Shown: piece after piece, positions 48,301 to 64,000 of the stretch | Layout: each line of letters begins with the position of its first letter | Numbering within the stretch: the stretch's first letter is position 1 | Assembly (NCBI GenBank): GCA_902590775.1 | Contig: CACIYC010000001.1 | Span: 1-64,000 of the forward strand | Source of the DNA: an uncultured Prochlorococcus sp. | GTDB taxonomy: Bacteria > Cyanobacteriota > Cyanobacteriia > PCC-6307 > Cyanobiaceae | Length of the DNA: 64,000 nt | Direction: 5' to 3' | Notes under the pieces: generated by a model | Database searches by the model: none | What the model was told of the DNA's origin: nothing | Seen by the model: the letters and a program-made list of their open reading frames with translations, nothing else | Program-made: the position numbers and the translations under genes

Positions 48301-48660
48301 TTTTTATTGTTATTAACTTTTAAAATAATTTTTACCTATAAGAAGTAAAAATAATTATTTATTTAGTATTTCTTTTTATCACATCTTATATGTTTATTTA
48401 TTCTTCTTATTAACTAACTATTTATAACTTATTTAATAGTAGGATAGACTTGATATAAATATTGCAACGCCTAGAGCTTTTAAGATAGTCTAGTTATTTC
48501 ACTTACATAAGCTTCTTTATAATAGCCATGGAATTCTTTACAAAACAAGCCAATCTAAAAAATAAAAATAGATATAGATAATATTCTATATATGTGCTTA
48601 TTTAATATCAATTGAAAGTATCAATAATCTTAAATTACAATACTCACTCTCCAATAGAAC

Positions 48661-48746
48661 GGAGAGTGGGGGATTCGAACCCCCGAAGGAGTTGCCCCCT
48701 TGCTAGTTTTCAAGACTAGAGCCATAAACCGCTCGACCAACTCTCC
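48661..48746 (-). tRNA. tRNA-Ser (anticodon UGA)
   Basis: Reverse complement GGAGAGTTGGTCGAGCGGTTTATGGCTCTAGTCTTGAAAACTAGCAAGGGGGCAACTCCTTCGGGGGTTCGAATCCCCCACTCTCC; full cloverleaf with a long variable arm, anticodon TGA. Confidence 0.96.
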
Positions 48747-49218
48747 ACTTTCAATTATACATTTTAAAAAACACAAAACCTGATTGATCTCAGCAATTTT
48801 CTCTTCTTGAAAACTTTATGCAAGTTATGGTTCGCCATTTTAAAAAAAGTAAGCTATGGAAAGTTGGGCAGGATTCTAAAGTTGCAGAACTAGATTCCAA
48901 ACTATCTTTAGCAATTTCCTCTCAATGGTAATTTATAGCCTTTGATTGATTTTATGTAAGGGCTTTGAGTCTAGGATCAAAGTTGATACAGAGCTTTAAG
49001 CAGTATTTCAAGGCAAACAGCTTAAAAAAAATATGTGCTTGCAAATGTTCGATGCAAGAGACCATCTAGTATATGCTCTTAGTAGATAATGCTTAAATCA
49101 CAAAATCTCTTGGATCAAAATAACAAAAGGTTGATTTCCTAGAAATACTGGTTTTGCTGAGGATTTTTTATAAAGCCTTTAAGATATAATTTTATAGTAA
49201 TTTTTAAAATATGAAAAA

Positions 49219-50028
49219 TTGCTCGTGGAATTCTTTCTTATAATTATAGGATTATGCTTTGGTAGTTTTCTAAATGTCTTAATAGTAAGAATACCATTAA
49301 AAAAATCAATCTTTTTTCCTTCTAGTCATTGCCCAATTTGCAAAGATAAAATTCTTTGGTATGACAATATTCCTCTATTATCATGGATATTACTAAAGGG
49401 TAAATGTCGTAATTGTTCTGGAAGAATATCTTTTATTTACCCAACTATTGAAATTTTGTTGGCAATTCTTTTGCTTATTGATTATTTTTATAATAAAAGA
49501 CTATATGATTCTAATTATATATTTAATTTTATATCAAGCTTAACTTTTTGTTCCATATTAATAGTTGTAAGCTTTATAGATATGAAAACATTTAGAATAC
49601 CAAACTCAGCCAATATATTTGCATTTTTAGCTGGATTAACTTATTGTTTTGTTCTTTCATTAATTTTTAGTGGAACTATTAATTTTAATTATTTTCTTTT
49701 AATTAGATTAGCGGAGGCATTAATCCTATATATTATTTTTGAAATATTTAGATATTTTATTAGGATGTTAATAGGGAAAAATGCATTTGGAGGTGGAGAT
49801 TCAAAATTAATATCTGCTTTGACAATTTGGCTTGGCCTAAAAAGCTCTGCTATTACATTGTTAATTTCCTTTTATCTCGCTGGCATCTTTATTTTTGTAG
49901 CTTACTTATTTAAAAATGCTAGTAGAGGAGATAAGATAGCTTTTGGTCCTTTCCTTTCTTCCTCAGCTTATTTGCTATGGGTTTTTGGAGCTGACAAAAT
50001 TATCCCAGTTATATTTCCTTATAGTTAG
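49219..50028 (+). CDS. pilD: Type IV prepilin peptidase (PilD/GspO; TTG or nearby GTG start)
   Basis: GLCFGSFLNVLIVRIPL, CPICKDKILWYDNIPLLSWILLKGKCRNC (two CxxC), FGGGDSKLISALTIWLG. Confidence 0.93.
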   Translation: MLVEFFLIIIGLCFGSFLNVLIVRIPLKKSIFFPSSHCPICKDKILWYDNIPLLSWILLKGKCRNCSGRISFIYPTIEILLAILLLIDYFYNKRLYDSNYIFNFISSLTFCSILIVVSFIDMKTFRIPNSANIFAFLAGLTYCFVLSLIFSGTINFNYFLLIRLAEALILYIIFEIFRYFIRMLIGKNAFGGGDSKLISALTIWLGLKSSAITLLISFYLAGIFIFVAYLFKNASRGDKIAFGPFLSSSAYLLWVFGADKIIPVIFPYS

Positions 50029-50059: not shown

Positions 50060-50521
50060 GTGATTATGAATTTAATTTTTTTTAAGGCGTTTTTATTCGT
50101 TGGATTTTTAGTCTCTAACCTTCCATCTTTTTCAGAGGAAATTAGTAATAAATATGAAGAATGCAATCAAGATACAGCATATAATGTCAACCCAATAAAA
50201 AAGCTTAATTGCTTAGATGCTAGTGATGCATTCCTTAACTCATTCTATTCTGACCATACTCCTCGTTCTTATCAATATCCTAACGATCGATTCTTTAAGC
50301 AAACATCATCAGCAAAATTATTGGGAGAATGGTTAGGATTTTATTCAACTAATAATTCACCAAAATTTGGTTTTCCAGATCAACGTATGAAGTATGATTC
50401 AAATAGTCTATCGGTTGAATTTAGTAGGCAAATATCTAAGATAACTAGAGATCCAATTTATACTGAAGATCTTTTTAATGGATTTAATTCAAGCATTTAT
50501 GAAGAGGAAACTTCTAGATGA
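50060..50521 (+). CDS. Hypothetical secreted protein in pilus locus
   Basis: Signal-peptide-like N-terminus (MNLIFFKAFLFVGFLVSNLPSFSEE) and soluble remainder; no family recognised. Confidence 0.7.
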   Translation: MIMNLIFFKAFLFVGFLVSNLPSFSEEISNKYEECNQDTAYNVNPIKKLNCLDASDAFLNSFYSDHTPRSYQYPNDRFFKQTSSAKLLGEWLGFYSTNNSPKFGFPDQRMKYDSNSLSVEFSRQISKITRDPIYTEDLFNGFNSSIYEEETSR

Positions 50522-51293
50522 GTCTAAACAGAAAAAATGCTTGACTTATAGCTTTAGCAATATTTAAGTTAAACTTTCTTTTGTTTTTAGTTTCTTTGAA
50601 TATTCTCTCTTTGAAGTCTAATATTTTATCTGCATTCTCTTCTTCCCCAATATCTATATATAATTTTGCGGCAATTTCTAAATCATACATACTTCTTTTT
50701 ATATTGCCTAACTCATAATTTATTATAGCTTTTGATAAAATAGCTTTTGGTTGTTTGGGTTCTTTTTTAATTGCTATTTTAAATATCTTTATAGCTTCTA
50801 AATATTTCTTATTTATGTAATAGGTTGCACCTAAGTTATTAAGCTTATCAATACTTACAGTTTCTTTTGTTATTCCAACTGCTTCAGATATATTGCTATT
50901 ATTAAGAGCTTCGTAGTCTATTATTGCTCCAGTCAGATCAGCTCCTCTAAAATCTGTATTATTTATTTTTGCTTCTTTCATATTTGATGCTCTAAGCGAA
51001 GTATTGACTAGTATTGTTTGGTTTAAGTTACTTCCTCGTAGGATCACTTCATCAAGTATGCTGCCACTTAAGTCACTATGACTTAGATCTGATTGAGATA
51101 AGTCTACTCCTCTTAAATCTAAATTAGTCATATTTATATTACTTAAATTGCATTGAATACATTTCTTGTCTTTTAGCACTTTGTTTATAGTAATATAAGG
51201 ATCTGCTAATATTTTGTAAGCTAATGTTCCACTAAAATCTGTTAGTAGAGTTATTATTAAGAGGCTCACTTTAAGAAAAGTATTCCTGCTCAT
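50514..51293 (-). CDS. Secreted pentapeptide-repeat plus TPR-like protein
   Basis: NLDLRGVDLSQSDLSHSDLSGSILDEVILRGSNLNQ... then LNNLGATYYINKKYLEAIKIFKIAIKKEPKQPKA TPR. Confidence 0.82.
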   Translation of the reverse strand: MSRNTFLKVSLLIITLLTDFSGTLAYKILADPYITINKVLKDKKCIQCNLSNINMTNLDLRGVDLSQSDLSHSDLSGSILDEVILRGSNLNQTILVNTSLRASNMKEAKINNTDFRGADLTGAIIDYEALNNSNISEAVGITKETVSIDKLNNLGATYYINKKYLEAIKIFKIAIKKEPKQPKAILSKAIINYELGNIKRSMYDLEIAAKLYIDIGEEENADKILDFKERIFKETKNKRKFNLNIAKAISQAFFLFRLI

Positions 51294-51382: not shown

Positions 51383-51991
51383 ATGTTATTTTTTAAGTTG
51401 CAAAAAAGAAATCTTGTCCGTGCTTTTGAGAATGATACCGAGGGTTTTACTATGCCTGAATTATTGGTTGTAATAGTACTTATTGCTTTGCTTGCTTCTT
51501 TTTCAGTCCCATCCTTATCTAGATGGATTAATAATGAGAGAAAAAATACTTATATAAATGAACTTAGGGATTTTATCCCACTTTTGCTTAGGGAATCGAG
51601 GAGGTGGGGAGGCAGTTGTTCAGTAAATATTAATAGATATATACCTTCAGGGGTAGAGGCTTCAGGCTTAAAGGTTAATTGCATAGGTATAGGTAAGGCG
51701 AGTCGAAATAATATTAAAAATGGTCCGAATATATCTAAGTTTATCTTTCAAGAAGCTAGTAGTGATTTTACAGTGACTCCTAAAGGCCAAATTTATACTT
51801 CAAACAATTCTCCAATAGTTTTTATTGTAGGAATGAGAGACGGGACAGGAAGAAATCAGCCAAAATGTATCGTATTTGAATTACCGGTTGGATCATCACG
51901 AACAGGACTATATACTCAAGCATCCTCTTTTTCCAGGTCAAGAAGTGGAAGTAGCATAAACCCTAGACTTAAGACTTCAAGTTGTAAATAA
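51383..51991 (+). CDS. Type IV pilin-like protein (GspH/FimT type)
   Basis: DTEGFTMPELLVVIVLIALLASFSVPSLSRW: class III signal (G|FTMPE). Confidence 0.9.
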   Translation: MLFFKLQKRNLVRAFENDTEGFTMPELLVVIVLIALLASFSVPSLSRWINNERKNTYINELRDFIPLLLRESRRWGGSCSVNINRYIPSGVEASGLKVNCIGIGKASRNNIKNGPNISKFIFQEASSDFTVTPKGQIYTSNNSPIVFIVGMRDGTGRNQPKCIVFELPVGSSRTGLYTQASSFSRSRSGSSINPRLKTSSCK

Positions 51992-52128: not shown

Positions 52129-52680
52129 ATGTCGCTTACAACCTTAAAAGCAAGATTAATTCAGAGACTTCTTGAAAAGGATGAAGACAAGCAGTCTGGT
52201 TTTACACTTGTTGAACTAATTGTTGTTGTTGTTATTATTGGGATTTTATCCTCTATTGCTATTCCTAGTTTCCAGAATGCTAGTGACAAAGCAAAACAAA
52301 AAGAAGCTTCAGCAATTGTTGCTTCTTGGGTTAAAGCTGCCCAAGCTTTTTATACTGAAAATAGTGATTATCCAAGGAATGTAAGAGATTTAGGAGGGTA
52401 TGTAACTATCTCAGGATGTAGAACAACTGGGAAATGGTGCAAAACAGGAACCATGACTGACTATACAAATTCAACTCGAACATGGATTTATAGTCCAAGC
52501 GGAAACTTTCAGGTTTATATGGGTCGAAGAGGTAATCGCCTTGACATAAGAGCTAGACCTACAGGAACTTATTCCTCCTCTGGCTATGGAGTGACTGGTT
52601 GCTATAATTGGCAGTCAGGTGCAACAAAAGTAATAGATCAAACCAATAAAGGACCTAGTGTTCCTACTACTAATTGTTAA
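52129..52680 (+). CDS. pilA: Type IV major pilin-like protein (PilA)
   Basis: KQSGFTLVELIVVVVIIGILSSIAIPSFQNASDKAKQKEA. Confidence 0.93.
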   Translation: MSLTTLKARLIQRLLEKDEDKQSGFTLVELIVVVVIIGILSSIAIPSFQNASDKAKQKEASAIVASWVKAAQAFYTENSDYPRNVRDLGGYVTISGCRTTGKWCKTGTMTDYTNSTRTWIYSPSGNFQVYMGRRGNRLDIRARPTGTYSSSGYGVTGCYNWQSGATKVIDQTNKGPSVPTTNC

Positions 52681-52697
52681 AATACAAAAAATAAGCT

Positions 52698-54881
52698 TTG
52701 TTTGTCGTGAAGAGTTTCTTCATTAGAAAGAGTAATAATTTATTTAATGATCAAAGCGGTTTTGCTTTAACTCAAGTCCTAATAATATCTATTGGTTTGG
52801 CTATAGGTATTACCTCTCTTATATCATCTTCTATCCTAAGATTATCAACTTCTAAAACTAAAACATTAGAAAATAATTCAAGAAATTCAGCTTATGCAGC
52901 GATTGCAAATATACGTTCATTATTTAATAATACAAAGGGCCCATTTAACTATTATTGGCTTTCTAAGGTTTGCTCTTCCAATGTAAAAAATACTAATTCA
53001 GAATGCCCTTCATTTAATTCTTTTAGTGATAGAAATAATTGGCCTGGAATGCTTTCCCTTGGTAAGTTCCCAGATTTATCTAATCTTTTTTGGGTAGATA
53101 GTTACGATAAGTGGTGTCAAAAAAAGAATAATTCAAAAAACTCTAGATGTTTTGGGAGGCAGGTTGCACCAAAATGTACATATGCTGGGAAACTTAGATC
53201 AGCTCCTATTGACTGGATGAATTTAACAAATAAAATTAATTTTATTTTAGATTCATCAGAAGAGAAAGTTGGGAGAATTATACCAAAAGCATTTCAAGAG
53301 AATAAACAAAGTTATTTAATAAATTCAATAAATTATGTTGGTAAAGAGCATGGCGGAGAAAATACTATTTTTGTAGAGGGCTTTACTAGATCTAATTCAA
53401 ATAATCAGAAAAATATTACTTCTACTAATAAAATTAGAGTCACTATGGCTGTAAATAAAATTGTTCCAGACTCAGGATTTGCTTTTATTAGTGCTGGTGA
53501 AAATGAGAATGATAGAGATAATTCTTTGTTTTTAGGAAATCTTTCTGTAAATGGAAAAGGATCAATTCTTTGGAGGAGAAATGTTTATAAGAATTCTGAT
53601 TGTACTCAGATCCTTTCGAAAGTTAATGTGCAGCGACAAAATCAACTTCCAGATAATACTAAAAGCGAGGGAGGACTTTGGGTTCAGCCATTAGAATTTC
53701 CTTCTGAGCCTGAACATAAAATTGCTAGTAAAGCAAAAACACATAAATTGGATTCAGTATTTTGCTCTCCTTCAAATTGGACTGATAGGAGTTCAAAATG
53801 TACAGATCTAGATAATTTTTCAAGAGGAGGAACAAATAATGGAAAAGTAGAAATTGACAATCTTTTTGTTCAAGGAGACGGGGCAGTTTTCTCGGTTACT
53901 ACAAATGAAAACAATAGGGTTACTTTGGTTTTTAATGGAGATGTGGAAATTAGCAATAATGGTAAATTTTGCCATAGGCATAATCGCGGAGGAGCTTGTG
54001 GAAGTGGAAAACCTGAAAATCTAACAATTATGTTTAAACAACCTAATTCTGCTAAACAAGAAATATTTTGTGAGACTAAAGGAGGAGGGATGACTTTGGC
54101 TAATGGTTTTAATTCAGGGAATCATACTTTTGTCCTTAGCAGTACAGGTAAAAAAAGTTCAGAAAAATTTAGTGGTTTTATTTATGGACCTACTACGACA
54201 TTAACAACTGCAAAAGTTGATAATGATTATTATCAACTACCTAATTCATATACTAGGCAAATTGTTATTTCCAGAGGAGCCTATGGAATTGTTACTAATC
54301 CCCATGGATCCACTTCATCTGAAAAGAGTCCAAAATCTATTAGATATAATGGAAGAAAAATTGCTTTTAGTAATCAGCGAATACCTGCTGGTTCTGTTCA
54401 TTTATTAGGCTGGAAAATTATAGCTGCTGGGAATAGACAAGGTGGATATCAGATTCCTCCTAACAATCCTATGGATACTATGATTCTTCTTTGGTATCCG
54501 CATTATAATTATTATAGGCTTTATGGGCTAAATGATAGCCATTCAAGCCATGCTGACTTGATAGTTCAGGCTCCTGGGAAGACAGCTATGATCAATATAG
54601 GTACAAACTTAAATAAAAAGAATCCTTATGGAGTTAGATGGTTAGATTATTATGGAATAAAATTAAATAAATCAAATAACACTAATCCCGTAAAGATAAA
54701 TGGAGTAGCTTGGATGAAGAATTTATGTTTAGATAAGGGACCAGTCATATGGGATTTTGATAAGAAAACTCCTAAAGAGCTTGAGAAAAGATATACACAG
54801 GAAATTAAATTTGGAGTTCCTTATTATCGTTCTAAAGTGATAACAGCATGGGATACATTAAGAGATTTTGACAGTCCTTAA
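52698..54881 (+). CDS. Giant pilin-like protein lacking Glu5 (PilX/GspK-like position)
   Basis: NDQSGFALTQVLIISIGLAIGITSLISSSILRL N-terminus with Gln in place of Glu5; 727 aa. ORF-track start is a non-ATG codon. Confidence 0.75.
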   Translation: MFVVKSFFIRKSNNLFNDQSGFALTQVLIISIGLAIGITSLISSSILRLSTSKTKTLENNSRNSAYAAIANIRSLFNNTKGPFNYYWLSKVCSSNVKNTNSECPSFNSFSDRNNWPGMLSLGKFPDLSNLFWVDSYDKWCQKKNNSKNSRCFGRQVAPKCTYAGKLRSAPIDWMNLTNKINFILDSSEEKVGRIIPKAFQENKQSYLINSINYVGKEHGGENTIFVEGFTRSNSNNQKNITSTNKIRVTMAVNKIVPDSGFAFISAGENENDRDNSLFLGNLSVNGKGSILWRRNVYKNSDCTQILSKVNVQRQNQLPDNTKSEGGLWVQPLEFPSEPEHKIASKAKTHKLDSVFCSPSNWTDRSSKCTDLDNFSRGGTNNGKVEIDNLFVQGDGAVFSVTTNENNRVTLVFNGDVEISNNGKFCHRHNRGGACGSGKPENLTIMFKQPNSAKQEIFCETKGGGMTLANGFNSGNHTFVLSSTGKKSSEKFSGFIYGPTTTLTTAKVDNDYYQLPNSYTRQIVISRGAYGIVTNPHGSTSSEKSPKSIRYNGRKIAFSNQRIPAGSVHLLGWKIIAAGNRQGGYQIPPNNPMDTMILLWYPHYNYYRLYGLNDSHSSHADLIVQAPGKTAMINIGTNLNKKNPYGVRWLDYYGIKLNKSNNTNPVKINGVAWMKNLCLDKGPVIWDFDKKTPKELEKRYTQEIKFGVPYYRSKVITAWDTLRDFDSP

Positions 54882-55482
54882 AATGCAAAATATGAGAAAA
54901 AGCATAGTTAAATTTGCCAATAAACATGATGATGCTTTTGGTCTTACAGAATCTATAATAAGCATTTTGTTATTATCACTTGTAGTCTCATATGCCACTG
55001 TATTTATTTCAAAAAGGTTGCAAATAATCCATAATGCAAATCTTATTAGTGCAATTAATGACGAAATTTATAGAGATACTCAAAAATTAAAATTTGAGTT
55101 GTGGAGGGAACATCTTGTAATATCTAAAAATTCTGCATTAGTATCATCTTTTTATGATGTTAATACTCCAGCAAACCGAAAGTATTGTTCGGATATAGGA
55201 AATACTTTACCTTTACTTCCTAGCTGGAATCCTACCAAGTGGACACCTAATGAAGACAATAATACTGTCTCAGGTCAATTAAGAAACTCAATTTTTAAAG
55301 GGAAGCCTATTACTATAACCAGAAAGTTAGAGACTTCTAGTCCTTTTGATTTGAATTATACTCATTTAGATAAAAGTCTTGCAAAATTAGTATATATAGT
55401 TGATTTTAAAGGAATTTCTAAGGTATGGAGTAGTATTGACTTAGTAAGTGATGCCCATAGTTGGTGCGATGCAAATGGTTAG
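54868..55482 (+). CDS. Minor pilin-like protein (Ala at -1)
   Basis: HDDAFGLTESIISILLLSLVVSYATVFISKRL: A|FGLTE followed by hydrophobic helix; overlaps the genes on both sides. Start may be the ATG of MQNMRK. Confidence 0.75.
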   Translation: MTVLKMQNMRKSIVKFANKHDDAFGLTESIISILLLSLVVSYATVFISKRLQIIHNANLISAINDEIYRDTQKLKFELWREHLVISKNSALVSSFYDVNTPANRKYCSDIGNTLPLLPSWNPTKWTPNEDNNTVSGQLRNSIFKGKPITITRKLETSSPFDLNYTHLDKSLAKLVYIVDFKGISKVWSSIDLVSDAHSWCDANG

Positions 55483-56851
55483 TTCCTTGAATGTTATTTT
55501 AAAAAGATATTGTAGATTAATTACTAATAATTTTTTATCTGATGAAGGTTTTACATTATCTGAACTCTTAGTTTCTTCAACTATTTCAATTATAGTCATT
55601 GCTTCGGGATATGCACTAAGTATGGTTGCTATTAATGCTAATTCTACAGACAAGGCTAGGATTGCTTTAAATAATAAAATTGATAATAGTTTAAATTATC
55701 TTCTTGATGAGATACAAAGTGGTAGAAGTCTAATTAAAGATAAAAGCAAGTTGCCTGATTCATGTAAGAATTTTGAAGGTAATCATTTTGTTTTGGGCGT
55801 TTATCTTCCGAAGCAGGCAATAAAAAGAGGCGATTATTCTAATACGGTTAATTCATGGCAATCAGTTAATTGTCCAATCATATATTCTCTGAAACAGGAG
55901 ATCCAAAAGAAAACTGGGCAGCCTATTACATATAAACTGTTAAGGAAAGGTCCTTCAATTGATAAAAAAGGTTTTTATACTAGCGCTAACCCTTCAACAA
56001 CAGTAATAACAGATTCTATTGATAAATCTCCTATGGATGATTTACTTTGCAGCCCTAAATGGGACAAAAAAATCATTAAAGGTTTAATTATTTGTTTTGA
56101 TCCAGATTTGAAATCTGCTGAAATAGCAATTTCTGCTAGAAATACAATAACGCCTGTGAGAAATGTTGTTAACAGGCAAACATCTGGTTCTTTCTCAAGG
56201 ATTTTTGAACGAGAAATAATGGGTAATATTCCAGTTGAGGGCGGAGGTTCTCAATGTAATACTGGCTGTTCATGTAATTATTATGGAACCCAAATTAGAA
56301 GTGATAGGGTTAATTTTACTATTGATACTTCTGGATCGATGGGATGGTATCGCATTAATGGAAAGTCTTTGATGGAGCATGCTAAGACTGAAACAATAAG
56401 ATTAATTGAATGCTTGAAGGATGGAACAAAGTTGTCAATAAATGGTTTTGATCACCGACAAAATTATTGCTTTAAAAGACCTATTACAATTAATAGTTAT
56501 TGGAAGAATAAAGCTATTAATTGTGTTTCTAAAATGTATGCTTATGGAGGAACAAATCCTTGGTCAGGTTTAAATAAAGATATTCAAGATCAAGATGTTG
56601 GACAAATTATTATTTTGTCAGATGGGCAAACTTATCCACCACCCTATGGGAGATGTTTTTATGATGGCAGAGTTGGTTGGCATGCAGATTGTTATGCAAG
56701 ATATAACGAACAAGTCCGAGATAATACTCCAGGAGGCAAGGTAACGTTTGATACTATATCACTTTGGAATAATTTTTGTGGCACTCAAGATTATCAATGG
56801 CTAGGCAGGTTGGCCGCAAAAAATGATGGTGAATGTAGCTTAATAAAATAA
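55475..56851 (+). CDS. Modular minor pilin with C-terminal von Willebrand factor A domain
   Basis: SDEGFTLSELLVSSTISIIVIASGYALSMVAI prepilin signal; FTIDTSGSMGW (DxSxS), YAYGGTNPWSG (Thr), IILSDGQTY (Asp) complete MIDAS. Start ATG (MVSSLNV) overlaps the previous stop codon. Confidence 0.88.
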   Translation: MVSSLNVILKRYCRLITNNFLSDEGFTLSELLVSSTISIIVIASGYALSMVAINANSTDKARIALNNKIDNSLNYLLDEIQSGRSLIKDKSKLPDSCKNFEGNHFVLGVYLPKQAIKRGDYSNTVNSWQSVNCPIIYSLKQEIQKKTGQPITYKLLRKGPSIDKKGFYTSANPSTTVITDSIDKSPMDDLLCSPKWDKKIIKGLIICFDPDLKSAEIAISARNTITPVRNVVNRQTSGSFSRIFEREIMGNIPVEGGGSQCNTGCSCNYYGTQIRSDRVNFTIDTSGSMGWYRINGKSLMEHAKTETIRLIECLKDGTKLSINGFDHRQNYCFKRPITINSYWKNKAINCVSKMYAYGGTNPWSGLNKDIQDQDVGQIIILSDGQTYPPPYGRCFYDGRVGWHADCYARYNEQVRDNTPGGKVTFDTISLWNNFCGTQDYQWLGRLAAKNDGECSLIK

Positions 56852-56865
56852 TTATTTTCTACTAG

Positions 56866-59142
56866 TTATTCCTCATTTCCATATATTAATTGTTTAGCAT
56901 CTTTAGTGCTTGGTTGGTACTTAGATGAAGTCTTAGTTAAAGAGCTTTGACTATCTTTAAGTATTTGCGGAGTTACTAAGATAACTAACTCTCTTTTTGT
57001 TTGTCCAGAGACTGAGTTTCTAAAGAATTGACCAATTAAAGGAATATCTCCAAAGAAGGGAAATTTTGTTATTGTTTCTTTGTCTTCTGTATTTAAAACA
57101 CCAGTAAGAATTAATGTATGGCCATCTCTAACTCTTATTGATCCAGTATCTAATCTTCTGACTGAAAGTAAATCAATATCTCCACATCCAGAAATAGTTC
57201 TTTTCTCAGATGTTGCAGAAACTGCAGGAGATAATGCGAAGGTTACAAATCCATTATCATCAACTCTAACTATTCTTGCTCCAAATGTAAGACCTGCAAG
57301 GCCATATTCAAATGAAGGAATTGAAGATTCTCCTTCAGAAGAACAGTTTACTGGAACTTGAGTACCTACTATTACAAATCCCTCATTGCCGTATGTTCTA
57401 CCAATAGATCCAGTTTTTAGAATAGAATCTAAATCACTTAGTACTACTTCCTGACCACCAGTTTTACCTGGAAATTCGTTTAAAATTAAAGTTGGACTAG
57501 CTAAAATCTTAGTGTTTGCTGATACTATTTCTGAGGTAAGAAAATCTACAAAGTTTTCATCTGGCATTAAACCAATTGGATTATTTCTAGTTCTTCTGTT
57601 ATATACATAGCCATCTGTTGTAGGAGTAGAAGTTGTATCAGTTGTAAATTGCTGTACTGTTTGAGCATCACTAAAGTCGGTACTATTGGCAGGTAGATAT
57701 TTACCAAAGGCACCTAATAGTTTTCCTTGATCATTTACTATGAAATTATTATTTTGTCTTAAGGCCCAACTATTTTTTAGTTCATTGTTATCGCTTAAAT
57801 TAACATCTAAAACTTTTATAGAAATAGCTACTTGACGTTGCCTTAAGTCTAGTTTTTTTAGGAATCCTTCGGCTACATTAACTAAATCTTTGGAACCAAT
57901 CATAGTTATAGTTTGAAGTCTGTCGTCTGTTGTAGCAATTAAGCCAACTAGTGGACCTATCTCAGACCCATAAACTTGAACGGTTGTTTTTGAACCACTT
58001 GTAGTAGTAGAAGAAGATGCACCTCCACTAACAGTTTCAGATTGAGTAGAGCCTTGAGTTATAGCTGTAGTAATAGTTGAAGTACGCGTTACTTTCGCAC
58101 CTAAATTAGCCAAATAAGAGGCAGCAGCATTTGCTGTTGTTTGATTTAATCTGTAGATTTTAGATATTCTTTCCGTGAAAGCAGTTTCTCTAACATTAGG
58201 ACCTACATAAACTATATCCTTGTCAGTTCTTGCTTGAAGTCCGCTTGCAATTAATAAAGAATTAAATGCTACTGAAAATGGTTTATTATCTATTGTAAGA
58301 GTAATTAATCTTGGGCTATCTGCATTTGATTCATCATCATCATCTGATGATGTCTGTTGATCTGGCGAACCAATACCACTAGATAAGGAAGTGCTTTGAT
58401 TAGATGTACTTAATGAATTAGATATTGTTGATTTTGAGATATAAGATGGATCACTTTTAACCCAAACATAACTATAAGTGGATTTAGAAAGTAAAAATTC
58501 GATTGCTTTTTTTGCTGGTGTTTGTTTGAAAACTAAACTTACTGTTGGTCCTTTTAAATTTAGAAGATTTGGGTTTTCTATGATTGTAGTGCCAATTGCC
58601 ATATCTCCAAGAGGAGGAGCTGTAGCTCTATTTATAGACTTTTTAAAGAATGTTTTTATTGGTGTGATTTTAAAAATATTATTTTTATTAAATGATAATT
58701 GTGATAAAGGTAATTTGAATTTTAGATTTAAACGATCATCTATATTTTCAATTCTTAATGTTGTTAGATCAATCGTTTCTGTAAATTGTACTGTAATTAA
58801 CAACTTGTCGTTAAAACTCTTCATGGAGGCATTTTCGACTCCTAATGAAGGCTTGGATATACTTTGAGGTGGCTGTTTATAAGGTTCTTCAAAATAAAGT
58901 GATAATATATTTCCTTCTAATACTTTGGAATATTTATTATTTGAAGAAATATTGCTAATTTGAAGTGATGTAAAATTATTTTTGCTTTGTAAATAGAAAT
59001 TTGGCTTAATTGAAACTAATTCCTCAGAGATAGGAGTTAGATTGGCTATATCTAGTTTATATCTATTATTTAAATTATCTGGAGAAGCTGGGCTATTCCA
59101 GAACATAAGCATAAATAAACAAAATGATGTTCTTTTATGCAT
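56866..59142 (-). CDS. pilQ: Type IV pilus secretin PilQ
   Basis: AMIN-like N-domain, secretin core VRDGHTLILTGVLNTEDKETITKFPFFGDIPLIGQFFRNSVSGQTKRELVILVTPQIL. Confidence 0.95.
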   Translation of the reverse strand: MHKRTSFCLFMLMFWNSPASPDNLNNRYKLDIANLTPISEELVSIKPNFYLQSKNNFTSLQISNISSNNKYSKVLEGNILSLYFEEPYKQPPQSISKPSLGVENASMKSFNDKLLITVQFTETIDLTTLRIENIDDRLNLKFKLPLSQLSFNKNNIFKITPIKTFFKKSINRATAPPLGDMAIGTTIIENPNLLNLKGPTVSLVFKQTPAKKAIEFLLSKSTYSYVWVKSDPSYISKSTISNSLSTSNQSTSLSSGIGSPDQQTSSDDDDESNADSPRLITLTIDNKPFSVAFNSLLIASGLQARTDKDIVYVGPNVRETAFTERISKIYRLNQTTANAAASYLANLGAKVTRTSTITTAITQGSTQSETVSGGASSSTTTSGSKTTVQVYGSEIGPLVGLIATTDDRLQTITMIGSKDLVNVAEGFLKKLDLRQRQVAISIKVLDVNLSDNNELKNSWALRQNNNFIVNDQGKLLGAFGKYLPANSTDFSDAQTVQQFTTDTTSTPTTDGYVYNRRTRNNPIGLMPDENFVDFLTSEIVSANTKILASPTLILNEFPGKTGGQEVVLSDLDSILKTGSIGRTYGNEGFVIVGTQVPVNCSSEGESSIPSFEYGLAGLTFGARIVRVDDNGFVTFALSPAVSATSEKRTISGCGDIDLLSVRRLDTGSIRVRDGHTLILTGVLNTEDKETITKFPFFGDIPLIGQFFRNSVSGQTKRELVILVTPQILKDSQSSLTKTSSKYQPSTKDAKQLIYGNEE

Positions 59143-59209: not shown

Positions 59210-60193
59210 TTAATTGGAAATTTCATTAGTAGTAAAATTTTGGTAATTGGTATCTAGATTAAGAGTTGGAATATTGATTAGAATTCTTGCTTCTACTAAA
59301 CCAGGTGATTGTGTTGTCTGGTTTAGAGAAGAGGCTGATCCACTAGCAGGTGTTTTTGGTTCAAAACAAACTGGAAGTGCAATCATCTTATATTCTTGTA
59401 TTGTTCTTAGGAAGTTTAAAAGATTTATATAGTCTGCTTTAACAAGGATTTTAAAATAATTCATATTATATTTGTTTTCATTTATATTATCTTTAACAAG
59501 TTTTGTTGTATCGATTCTAAGTTTATTTATTAATTCATCATTATTAACTATATAGTCTAATTTCTTTTGTAACTCTATCTCTTCAAATTTACCTTCTATT
59601 GAGGTTTGGTCTAGGAAATCATCCATATTTTCGTTGAAATCATCGTTTAGGCTATCATCGAAATTATTCATATCTAAATTCATATTGTCTTCAAATTCAA
59701 ACTCTGAATCATTTGATGAAGCTGTACATGAAGATAATTCATCTTTAGTTATAGGAGCAAATTCTTGTATTTCTATTAAGCTTCTTCTGGCAGCATCTGT
59801 TAGCAATGCCGATAGATTTACTATTTCTGAATTATCTGGTATTAATGACATTATATTCTTATAATAGGGCAATAATTTAGTTTTAATTGATAAGCTCTTA
59901 TCTATTTGTTCTTTTATTATTGGTAGATGATTCGATTCTCTTGAATATCTATTTGAAAGAGATTGGAGTTTTCTCAGATTTTTAAACTGTGGTATTAATA
60001 TAGTAAAGATTAGAATTATAGAAATAGAAATCCCTGAAATAGGAGCAAGATATTTTGATTTACGTATATCTGACCAGGATATCTTCCTTAGATCATTAAT
60101 ACTGAAACTTTTAGTACTTTCAAATACCTGGCTTACATTTATTTCTTTAAGCTTCTCTATAAGTTGAAAAATACTTTTATTATTATTATCCAT
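59210..60193 (-). CDS. pilO: PilO-like pilus alignment protein
   Basis: Single N-terminal TM, coiled coil, position between pilQ and pilN-like genes. Confidence 0.75.
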   Translation of the reverse strand: MDNNNKSIFQLIEKLKEINVSQVFESTKSFSINDLRKISWSDIRKSKYLAPISGISISIILIFTILIPQFKNLRKLQSLSNRYSRESNHLPIIKEQIDKSLSIKTKLLPYYKNIMSLIPDNSEIVNLSALLTDAARRSLIEIQEFAPITKDELSSCTASSNDSEFEFEDNMNLDMNNFDDSLNDDFNENMDDFLDQTSIEGKFEEIELQKKLDYIVNNDELINKLRIDTTKLVKDNINENKYNMNYFKILVKADYINLLNFLRTIQEYKMIALPVCFEPKTPASGSASSLNQTTQSPGLVEARILINIPTLNLDTNYQNFTTNEISN

Positions 60194-60196
60194 AAC

Positions 60197-60946
60197 TTAT
60201 AATTCAAATGATTTAATGGCTTTTAAATAAATATCAAGCTTATTTATTTTACCAAAATTGTATGTATCTTTATACATACTTAATTTTTTTTCTAAGTTAA
60301 TGTGGTTTAATTCACCCGAAATCTCTAAGAAGCTAGTATGAGGATTGTTAATATTTGATTGTTGAAATGTATTTGTTTTGCTTTGTTTAATTAGTCTCTT
60401 AACCTTTAATGAACCTTCTTTTACTAGTAATGATTTATTTAATAATGAAATAAAATCATTTAGTGAATTAATATCATTAGAACTTGCATTTATTACAAAA
60501 GCCTTTGCATCAAGTGCATAGTTTGATAGTCTCACATCAATTGGAACAGTTTGTTGAAGATAATGAGCAAATAAAACTGAAGGAGAATCTATTGATTCAA
60601 ATGGTAATAAACTCTTTAATTCATTAGAATATAACATAAGTTCATTATTTAAACTCTCTAGTTCTTGGTATTTCAAATTAAAACTATCATGATTTTCCCT
60701 TAAAGAGGATATTCTCATCCTTGGAATTAGAGTTATACTAGTAATAAGTAAGGTTATAGAAAATATAACTAAAGGAGGAATATAAAGAGATTTTTGCTTG
60801 CTTATTAAATTGAATATTAATTTATAATTTATATTAAGTAATAAATTCCTATCTGAATCAAATTGATCGTTTGAATCTTTTTTTGAAATATGTTTTTCCC
60901 ATCTTTTTAGTGTGGGGAAGTTATCAGCAAAATTAAATGTTGTCAT
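60197..60946 (-). CDS. pilN: PilN-like pilus alignment protein
   Basis: Single TM plus coiled coil plus FVINASSNDINSLNDFISLLNKS; overlaps the PilM-like gene by 4 bp. Confidence 0.75.
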   Translation of the reverse strand: MTTFNFADNFPTLKRWEKHISKKDSNDQFDSDRNLLLNINYKLIFNLISKQKSLYIPPLVIFSITLLITSITLIPRMRISSLRENHDSFNLKYQELESLNNELMLYSNELKSLLPFESIDSPSVLFAHYLQQTVPIDVRLSNYALDAKAFVINASSNDINSLNDFISLLNKSLLVKEGSLKVKRLIKQSKTNTFQQSNINNPHTSFLEISGELNHINLEKKLSMYKDTYNFGKINKLDIYLKAIKSFEL

Positions 60947-62262
60947 TTTACTAATTCCTCACAATGATTCGAAAAGATAGATAGCAATGAATTATATTTT
61001 TTTCCAAGTGCTGGATCCAGTTGGTCATCTAATTTGTATTTATTGAATAATGAAGATGGAACTTTATAGAAGTTTTCTGTTAATTTCTTTCCATCTAAAA
61101 CCATATTGTCAAAGCCAGTACCAAAAACATATACTTTATATTGATAATTGTAGGAATTATTTTCGACTATTTGCTTAATTGAATTTGAAAGCCTATAAAA
61201 ATACATATCAGATAATTCATTATCATCAGACGTATATAAGGAAGAGCCAAAAGGTAATCTTGTACTAAATAGTTCTCGCTTTTTAATTTGTAGAAAAATA
61301 GAAGTTGTGGATTTTTCTATATCAGCAACAATGACCATCTCTTCTTTAACTTCTTCGGAAATTGCTTGTATTACTTGAAATGCTGCTGTAGAAATTGAAG
61401 CAATAGGTAAATCTATTTCTTGAAGGACATTTTTCCATGAATTAAGGGATTCTTTTTCTGCGTACACGACCCTATAAAAGGAATTAAAATCTTTTGCTAA
61501 TGTCTTTGAGTAGGAAATAATTGTGTTTTTCGGAAGAAATGGACTTTTGGCAAGTACATCTGGAGAATTAACTGAGAAAACACCAATTTCGTTTTCCTTG
61601 AAACTTCTTGCAGTAAAGCCTGAAGAAGATAGTAAAAGAATTAATGAAGAATTTCTTAGGTTTAGTACTGAAATTACATTTTCAATTATGTTGCTAAGTT
61701 CAATTATATTTTCAACTTTAGAATCTCCTACTACTTCAGTTGGAATATCTATTTTGATTAACTTGGTGAAAATAGTTATATGATTTGAATACTTCATTGG
61801 AATTATAAACAACTCGTGCTCACCATAATATAATCCAATAAATTGCTCGTATGAATCATTTGTATTTACTTTTTTGTTAGTTCTAATTGTTTTCTTTGAG
61901 ATGATATCAAGTCTTTCTATTACTTTTATCTTTGTTGAATTTAATATATCTCGCACATTAGAAAGACTATTAACAATAGGAAGGTTTATATTTGAAAATG
62001 TTAATAATCTTCTTAGCTTTATTTTGACCTTGTTGCCTGCATTTATACCTATTCCTTTATATTTGAAAATGAAATTATTATCACTTGTACTGTTTTTAAA
62101 ATAAGGTTTTATTTTTTTAAACTTTGATTTTATTCGTACATTTATTTTTTCATAGTTATTTTTAATGCCTGATCCTATTTCTTTATAGTAAATCTTAATA
62201 TTTTTTCTTGCTTTTATTAATCTACTTAATAATGAAGCATATTTATTTTTAATAATCTTCAT
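60943..62262 (-). CDS. pilM: PilM-like actin-fold protein
   Basis: Position upstream of pilN; VIVADIEKSTTSIFLQIKKRELFSTRLPFGSSLY resembles the PilM/FtsA-like nucleotide-binding region. Confidence 0.7.
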   Translation of the reverse strand: MKIIKNKYASLLSRLIKARKNIKIYYKEIGSGIKNNYEKINVRIKSKFKKIKPYFKNSTSDNNFIFKYKGIGINAGNKVKIKLRRLLTFSNINLPIVNSLSNVRDILNSTKIKVIERLDIISKKTIRTNKKVNTNDSYEQFIGLYYGEHELFIIPMKYSNHITIFTKLIKIDIPTEVVGDSKVENIIELSNIIENVISVLNLRNSSLILLLSSSGFTARSFKENEIGVFSVNSPDVLAKSPFLPKNTIISYSKTLAKDFNSFYRVVYAEKESLNSWKNVLQEIDLPIASISTAAFQVIQAISEEVKEEMVIVADIEKSTTSIFLQIKKRELFSTRLPFGSSLYTSDDNELSDMYFYRLSNSIKQIVENNSYNYQYKVYVFGTGFDNMVLDGKKLTENFYKVPSSLFNKYKLDDQLDPALGKKYNSLLSIFSNHCEELVK

Positions 62263-62813
62263 CTCTCTTCAAGGATAAATGTCTTTTCTAATTTTCCATT
62301 TGATAAGATGACTTTTACTGGATTAGATGTTATGTCCTTTAATATATATCCGTCTTCAATCTCCTCTCCTTTCTTATAGTAGTCACTCCCTTTGCTTGTT
62401 CTTATAAGGGCAGATCTTTCATTGCCAATAAATATTGCTGCAGATACATCTGTTTTTTGTAGGAAAGAGGAGGTTAGGCTCTCTCCTCCTGAAGTGGTAT
62501 TAGAGAATGGATTCCTCCCAAAATTTAATCTATCCGCTTCCATCCCATCACTTTTATTTGGTATATCTCTAAGTTCAAATGAAATAAGTATTTTGCTTGT
62601 TGTTGTATTGCTTGCCTTAAGCTGAGGAATAACTTCCTCATCAATTGATTTAGCAAAAGAACTATTAAGCGTTAATATAAAAATGTTTGATGCAAAAAAT
62701 GATAGTGCTATTCTTGTATAAATTGGCTTCCCTCTATGGCCTTTAATGACTTCCTTTAGTGTCATGATTAAATTCTTACTTTCCAAAGTATCATCAGAAT
62801 AATTTTTTTGCAA
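62259..62813 (-). CDS. PilP/GspC-like pilus protein
   Basis: AAIFIGNERSALIRTSKGSDYYKKGEEIEDGYILKDITSNPVKVILSNGKLEKTFIL resembles the HR domain of GspC/PilP; first gene of the minus-strand operon. Confidence 0.65.
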   Translation of the reverse strand: MQKNYSDDTLESKNLIMTLKEVIKGHRGKPIYTRIALSFFASNIFILTLNSSFAKSIDEEVIPQLKASNTTTSKILISFELRDIPNKSDGMEADRLNFGRNPFSNTTSGGESLTSSFLQKTDVSAAIFIGNERSALIRTSKGSDYYKKGEEIEDGYILKDITSNPVKVILSNGKLEKTFILEER

Positions 62814-62866: not shown

Positions 62867-64000
62867 ATGAATTCAAATCCAGAGACTAGTCCAAAGGAAA
62901 TATCGAATATTTCTAATTTATCGATTGACAACCTTATAGATTCAAATTTGTGTGAGTCAGCAGGTGTCATACCTTTATCAATAGATGGTAATACAATAAA
63001 GCTTGGAGCTATGAATCCTCTTTATATCGAGGTTACTGAGATTTCCGAGAAATTAAAATTAGAATATGGAGCAAATGTTTTTGTAGATCAGATTTCAATA
63101 GAGGAATGGGAAAAGTGGTTTGAGAATTCTGAGTCTCAGAATCTAGAAAGTATATCAATGGCTAGTCAACAAGAAATACATACTTCTTTGGATGTTGTTG
63201 AAAAAACTGAATCTGAAGAAAATGAATATCAAAATGTCTTAGAAAGTAGCGATTCTGATAATAATTCCAATGAACTAATGGAATCCCTTAAGGATAAAAC
63301 AAATATTCTCACTCCTACTGAACCAACAAGTGCAGATCATGAGATTAATAATTTATTTGATATGATTGATTTTGACGAAGAAGAAGACGAAGAAGAAGAA
63401 GAGATTGAAGCTATTGAGGATTCTGAATTCTCAAATTCCAAAGATCCTGTAATCAAGGCAGTGGGATCTATCCTTTTGCTCTCCCAACAAGTAGGAGCTT
63501 CAGATATTCATGCTGAACCTCTAGAAGATAGAATGAGAATTCGCTATCGGGTAGATGGAGTTCTTAAGGAATATTTTACTTTGCCTAAAAAGAAATCAAA
63601 GGCAATAATTAATAGATTAAAGGTTATGAGTAAGTTAGATATAGCAGAAAAACGCTTGCCCCAAGATGGGAGAATCAGATGTAAATTAAATACCGTAGTA
63701 TTAGATTTTCGGGTTAGTACTTTGCCAGGAAAATGGGGAGAAAAGATAGTTTTAAGGTTGCTAAGTTCTGATTCTTCAATGTTAAAACTAGATAAGTTAA
63801 TTACTACTTCGAGTGAACTTGATCTGGTTAGGGAGATGGGAGGTTCCCCTTATGGGATATTAATTGTTGTTGGTCCAACAGGAAGTGGTAAATCTACAAC
63901 TTTATATTCAATATTAAATGAAAGAAATACACCTGATGTTAATATAAGTACAGTTGAAGATCCCGTAGAATATACTCTACCCGGTATTCATCAAGTGCAG
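62867..64000 (+). CDS. pilB: Type IV pilus assembly ATPase PilB, N-terminal part (3' truncated by window edge)
   Basis: MNSNPETSPKEISN..., MshEN-like N-domain, ADIHAEP, RYRVDGVLKEYF, VVGPTGSGKSTTLYSIL Walker A, TVEDPVEYTLPGIHQVQ; absent from the ORF track because it runs off the end. Confidence 0.95.
   Translation, partial: MNSNPETSPKEISNISNLSIDNLIDSNLCESAGVIPLSIDGNTIKLGAMNPLYIEVTEISEKLKLEYGANVFVDQISIEEWEKWFENSESQNLESISMASQQEIHTSLDVVEKTESEENEYQNVLESSDSDNNSNELMESLKDKTNILTPTEPTSADHEINNLFDMIDFDEEEDEEEEEIEAIEDSEFSNSKDPVIKAVGSILLLSQQVGASDIHAEPLEDRMRIRYRVDGVLKEYFTLPKKKSKAIINRLKVMSKLDIAEKRLPQDGRIRCKLNTVVLDFRVSTLPGKWGEKIVLRLLSSDSSMLKLDKLITTSSELDLVREMGGSPYGILIVVGPTGSGKSTTLYSILNERNTPDVNISTVEDPVEYTLPGIHQVQ

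Follow-up and report, generated by a model that had tools for sequence, protein, structure and literature searches.

A modular minor pilin with a vWA domain in the type IVa pilus locus of a Prochlorococcus-like genome

vWA domains in known pilus tip proteins

PilB, PilY1 and CpaL are vWA tip proteins that are already known. PilB of S. sanguinis (PDB 7B7P; D319A mutant, 7BA2) is encoded in a minor-pilin operon and consists of a class III prepilin signal and a pilin module, followed by a vWA domain with a complete MIDAS. Metal binding by PilB (Mg2+ Kd about 70 µM) is dispensable for folding and piliation and is needed for twitching; the D319A mutant is piliated and does not twitch (PMC8179133). 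PilB belongs to the monoderm PilABC set, the counterpart of HIJK, in which the K subunit lacks Glu5 and caps the tip (PMC9934059). In the type IVa pili of diderms, a vWA effector presumed to sit at the tip beside the minor pilins is supplied by PilY1/PilC1, a separate non-pilin protein with a C-terminal beta-propeller (PF05567). CpaL/TadG of the Caulobacter Tad pili combines a pilin-like N-terminus with a MIDAS-bearing vWA domain that is split by beta-rich insertions (PMC12607857).

In published work, picocyanobacterial pili have been linked to buoyancy and to resistance against grazing rather than to attachment (PMC7994388), and natural competence is thought to have been lost in picocyanobacterial lineages (PMC12288463). 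In the literature searched (mainly open-access papers), no paper was found that names the tip of Prochlorococcus or marine Synechococcus pili, links a vWA domain to a cyanobacterial or picocyanobacterial pilin, ties picocyanobacterial attachment to a vWA pilin gene, or reports an experiment on the protein described here or its orthologues.

The pilus locus and its modular pilin

The window, i.e. the whole stretch of 64,000 nucleotides that was analysed, belongs to a genome of Prochlorococcus type, 1.24 Mb in size and 67% complete. It contains most of a type IVa pilus locus, whose genes and protein modules are as follows.

49219..50028, plus strand: prepilin peptidase PilD (A24_N_bact 3e-32, Peptidase_A24 8.2e-16)
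51383..51991, plus strand: H/FimU-like minor pilin, 202 aa (weak gspH match, 1.5e-3)
52129..52680, plus strand: PilA-like major pilin, 183 aa
52698..54881, plus strand: large K/PilX-like prepilin, 727 aa, G↓FALTQ
54868..55482, plus strand: I/PilV-like minor pilin, 204 aa, A↓FGLTE (classed by size and order, no HMM match)
55475..56851, plus strand: vWA modular minor pilin (J-like), 458 aa
55475..55549, plus strand: class III prepilin leader of the vWA pilin, residues 1-25, ending at G25 (predicted cleavage site)
55550..56260, plus strand: pilin module, residues 26-262, long N-terminal helix and beta-rich head (AF2 secondary structure)
56306..56848, plus strand: vWA domain, residues 278-458
56324..56338, plus strand: MIDAS DTSGS, residues 284-288
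56546..56554, plus strand: MIDAS GGT, with T360
56621..56623, plus strand: MIDAS D383, within LSDG
56866..59142, minus strand: secretin PilQ, convergent with the vWA pilin gene (Secretin 7.7e-25)
59210-60193, minus strand: PilO-like (order and conservation)
60197-60946, minus strand: PilN-like (order and conservation)
60943-62262, minus strand: PilM-like (weak HMM matches)
62259-62813, minus strand: PilP-like (order and conservation)
63470..64000, plus strand: pilB, the part within the window
64651-65667 of the contig, beyond the window: pilT, followed by a pilC-like gene

The vWA pilin gene is thus the last of a run that comprises pilD and the H-like, PilA-like, K-like and I-like genes, and faces pilQ-O-N-M-P. 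Between pilD and the H-like gene lie a 153-aa ORF and, on the opposite strand, a gene for a pentapeptide-repeat/TPR protein (50514-51293), which is kept inside the pilin gene run in two further loci (L031 and L032). The order pilD-H-PilA-K-I-J facing pilQ is retained in the named Prochlorococcus loci of the window type. Another Prochlorococcus locus type, represented by three loci, has the order PilA-K-I-H-J, and a Synechococcus-like genome (L122) possesses in tandem two complete minor-pilin sets of this K-I-H-J kind, both closed by a vWA pilin.

The ORF of the vWA pilin starts with an ATG at 55475 and ends with a TAA at 56851; its first 8 nt lie within the pilin gene before it. Coordinates, strand and frame agree exactly with those given in the first-pass annotation, as does the G↓FTLSE prepilin signal. 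This signal reads G25↓F26-T-L-S-E30 and is followed by a hydrophobic helix, which is the class III pattern (a Gly, then Phe or Met, three residues and a Glu). The N_methyl model reached 21.2 bits in the whole-genome search, which equals the curated cut-off, and 17.0 bits (4e-3), slightly under the Pfam cut-off, when the protein was searched as such. The available genome gave three N_methyl matches, all of them within the pilus locus.

The vWA pilin is encoded together with an H-like, an I-like and a Glu5-less K-like protein, as is a J subunit; the labels H, I, J and K were assigned from gene order, size and residue 5. The K-like prepilin contains a Gln instead of a Glu at position +5 in 15/15 aligned orthologues and has a large beta-rich body. 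A family-model search with it gave no match and a fold search no significant one, the top entry being the Thermus competence pilin ComZ (E 6e-3, prob 0.14). Among 25 vWA pilin orthologues, HMM searches yielded weak HpsC matches for 8 and gspJ matches for 2 (best E 3e-4); the window protein had no gspJ match. In pilin module length and operon position, it resembles GspJ/PilW, cyanobacterial HpsC and S. elongatus PilW, which are all devoid of a grafted vWA domain.

All five MIDAS residues are present in the window protein (D284, S286, S288, T360 and D383). When residues 101-458 were shuffled, a loose version of the MIDAS pattern appeared in 25% of the cases; the letters by themselves therefore prove little, and the motif was rejected as stand-alone evidence. 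Family models gave a mixed result. A vWA-containing NCBIfam model matched the window protein at 4.5e-7, whereas VWA_3 scored 20.9 bits (4e-4) and remained under the Pfam cut-off of 27 bits; VWA_3 matches to orthologues reached 1.2e-9. Taken alone, the window protein hence stays under the vWA thresholds of Pfam. A PHROGs search gave no match.

A structure was predicted with AlphaFold2 from the window protein and 16 orthologues of named genomes. The mean pLDDT of the model is 79.6; all blocks of the vWA domain exceed 80 and most exceed 90. The pilin module shows the long N-terminal alpha helix (residues 28-82, the first part with moderate confidence) and the beta head (strands 104-242) that are typical of type IV pilins. 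The vWA domain comprises beta1 278-284, helix 299-313, beta 319-325 and 329-331, helices 341-352 and 363-371, beta 377-382, helix 403-413, beta 424-430, helix 442-449 and beta 454-457. This is the strand and helix order of the Rossmann-like vWA fold, and the MIDAS residues lie at three sites, namely in the loop that follows beta1, ahead of helix 363-371 and where beta 377-382 ends. With a pTM of 0.47, the placement of the two modules relative to each other appears to be loose in the model.

The top three Foldseek matches in the PDB are chains of S. sanguinis PilB (two of 7BA2, one of 7B7P). The alignments have E-values of 2.6e-9 to 1.2e-8, span about 470 columns at 13-14% identity and cover both modules in the same order; a sequence search of the PDB did not list PilB among its matches. 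The whole-chain TM to PilB is about 0.3, which fits the uncertain module orientation in the model, and single-domain vWA chains reached a TMt of up to 0.76. The protein is consequently a modular pilin of the PilB type, as had been claimed: a pilin module followed by a grafted vWA domain. Given the VWA_3 matches of the orthologues (1.2e-9), the conservation of the MIDAS outside Prochlorococcus (45/45, see below) and the confident topology with PilB as top match, the assignment of the vWA domain is above chance.

PilB shares with the window protein the class III signal, the module order, the complete MIDAS and the location in a minor-pilin operon, and is its best match of solved structure. In contrast to the monoderm PilABC set, the locus described here is of diderm type, with PilQ and a set of H/I/J/K-like proteins; sequence identity in the structural alignment is 14%, and many orthologues of the window protein lack the MIDAS. 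Compared to PilY1, the window protein carries a prepilin signal and has no PF05567 match. Compared to CpaL, its vWA domain (278-458) is contiguous, and the locus is a type IVa locus with PilQ/M/N/O/B/T.

Distribution of the vWA pilin and erosion of its MIDAS

Full-length orthologues were found in 68 of 400 Cyanobiaceae genomes, 24 of them in Prochlorococcus-like genera, which were recognised by their genome size and their named relatives. The nearest named relative is from Prochlorococcus sp. AG-436-C13 (70% identical). Of the Prochlorococcus-like genomes that encode the PilT of this locus (E <1e-135), 24 of 25 possess the vWA pilin, and the remaining genome is 57% complete. The protein is therefore no oddity of a single oligotroph; nearly all piliated Prochlorococcus sampled have it as their usual minor pilin in the J position, as do many other Cyanobiaceae genomes. 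Some Prochlorococcus-like genomes without a vWA pilin (G219, G167, G220 and others) encode just one PilT-like ATPase, which matches less well (E ~1e-125 to 1e-129) and may be a paralogue from outside the pilus locus. In one 82% complete genome (G151, locus L073), the vWA pilin gene is broken by two stop codons and PilT was not found.

In a phylum-wide sample, full-length matches were confined to the Cyanobiaceae; in other cyanobacterial families, mostly just the pilin module was matched, and the few weak vWA matches stood by themselves in large proteins that are unrelated. On this distribution, the vWA domain was probably grafted within the Cyanobiaceae onto a pilin that is widespread in cyanobacteria. 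A Prochlorococcus-type pilus locus was also seen in a MAG named Crocinitomicaceae (L040, PBXW01000005.1), which is probably mis-binned. P. marinus MIT 9302 has two vWA pilin copies, with a vWA omega of 0.40 between them. The second copy (L038:9983-11353 and L036:5806-7164) is an inverted orphan about 13 kb from the operon copy and is not accompanied by H, I or K genes.

The state of the MIDAS was determined for 78 distinct orthologues that cover the site, 45 from outside Prochlorococcus and 33 from Prochlorococcus. All five residues are intact in each of the 45. Within Prochlorococcus, 17 of 33 are intact (L037 and L041 among them by letters only around T360), one retains four of the five residues, and 15 have lost two to five. 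These 15 are L009-L012, L014, L016-L020, L057, L058, L061, L007 and L008. In the main eroded group, the Thr is replaced by Ile or Val and the last Asp by Ala; in L007 and L008, both Asp residues and the Thr are gone. Intact and MIDAS-less states occur side by side in the genus groups g1 and g17. The search of named genomes was made with an alignment of MIDAS-intact sequences, and named MIDAS-less genomes are few for this reason.

Between the window gene and its nearest relative, omega is 0.15 for the pilin module and 0.13 for the vWA domain, and values of 0.10-0.22 for the vWA domain in MIDAS-less lineages likewise indicate purifying selection. All eight conserved cysteines are kept. PilT is present in 15/15 MIDAS-less genomes with full-length vWA pilin genes; a joint loss of the MIDAS and the retraction motor was rejected on this count. 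In the pilin-module tree, MIDAS-less genes fall into two or three groups, and three state changes are needed on a quick tree, two on a careful tree. An AU test did not reject a single MIDAS-less clade (p 0.16). Several independent losses were therefore not retained as a firm claim, and one to three losses are suggested by the trees.

The MIDAS has thus been removed in nature at least once while the vWA domain was kept. From its loss in 15 of 33 Prochlorococcus orthologues it follows that the core job of the tip subunit needs no metal site. The MIDAS-less vWA domain must still have some job, whether it uses a different surface or bears force or has a structural role, and this raises the question what these pili hold on to.

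A candidate J-type tip subunit

With some reserve, we favour the reading that the vWA pilin serves as J subunit in a tip complex of the HIJK type and brings along its own, probably metal-loaded, vWA ligand-binding effector for an adhesion on which PilT could pull. PilD would cleave the precursor before F26. The mature protein would then take the GspJ/PilW position in the H-I-J-K complex that initiates the type IVa pilus and forms its cap, its N-terminal helix packing under the K-like subunit, which would be placed on top because it lacks Glu5. At the tip, the C-terminal vWA domain would stand out as a ligand-binding effector and fill the role that PilY1 has in other diderms. Seawater contains about 50 mM Mg2+. 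As this is far above the Kd of 70 µM of PilB, an intact MIDAS would be loaded all the time, and could bind an acidic group of the ligand and so create an adhesion that PilT can pull on.

The arrangement suggests that a cyanobacterial tip effector can be joined to the J pilin rather than exist as a separate PilY1. A search for the PilY1 domain gave no match in 246 cyanobacterial genomes; the control genomes were likewise silent, and the absence of PilY1 was rejected as proof. The term metal-dependent tip adhesin, which the first-pass annotation had proposed, is plausible for the window protein. Judging from the aligned residues, it cannot hold for the whole orthologous family, given the eroded MIDAS in Prochlorococcus.

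A less probable but serious reading is that the vWA domain chiefly caps the tip in a structural or mechanical sense and acts in initiation, in K/I/J packing or as a force sensor, ligand binding by the MIDAS being secondary or a relic. The constraint on the MIDAS-less domains, with their cysteines and PilT retained, is what would be expected of such a cap, and a mechanosensor role has been argued for the vWA-bearing CpaL (PMC12607857), as a force sensor has also been proposed for PilY1. However, a purely structural role would not need a MIDAS that is perfect in all orthologues outside Prochlorococcus and in about half of those within.

Some eukaryotic vWA domains bind by a surface other than the MIDAS. 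It is conceivable, but we consider it unlikely, that the protein is an adhesin for proteins or glycans, be it on particles, on chitin, on other cells or on protists, the ligand varying by pilus type and the MIDAS-less forms using such another surface. The strong divergence of the vWA loops between orthologues and the alternative pilus-locus types inside one genus are in line with this reading, as is the known attachment of some picocyanobacteria to chitin (PMC12329445); the literature mentioned above does not connect attachment with the gene. Finally, it is highly improbable that the protein is a vWA protein anchored in the membrane whose GFTLSE motif is due to chance: the window protein alone is under some curated cut-offs, but its gene is in an operon with pilD and four other prepilins and co-occurs with pilT, its orthologues share the signal and its fold matches PilB.

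If the J-type assignment is combined with the two MIDAS states, marine picocyanobacteria might have two kinds of type IVa tips. In one, a metal-loaded vWA J pilin would grip and pull; in the other, a MIDAS-less one, still accompanied by PilT, would no longer grip through the MIDAS and would serve drag, defence against grazing or another ligand. Both kinds would be found within single genera. We regard this extension as tentative and rather doubtful. If true, Prochlorococcus would be a natural experiment on the purpose of the vWA domain at a pilus tip. In any case, the most abundant photosynthetic group has in the vWA pilin a conserved candidate tip that carries a ligand-binding domain, and it offers a direct test of whether open-ocean cells use their pili for attachment.

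Two further observations concern the setting of these genes. In L046 (9299-12265) and L121, which are without recognisable H, I and K genes, a fully MIDAS-less vWA pilin is located between two PilA-like genes. A tRNA-Ser(TGA) gene (48659-48747) adjoins the pilus locus of the window and another one is found near the locus in L042 (1240-1330); this tRNA site is a possible integration hotspot.
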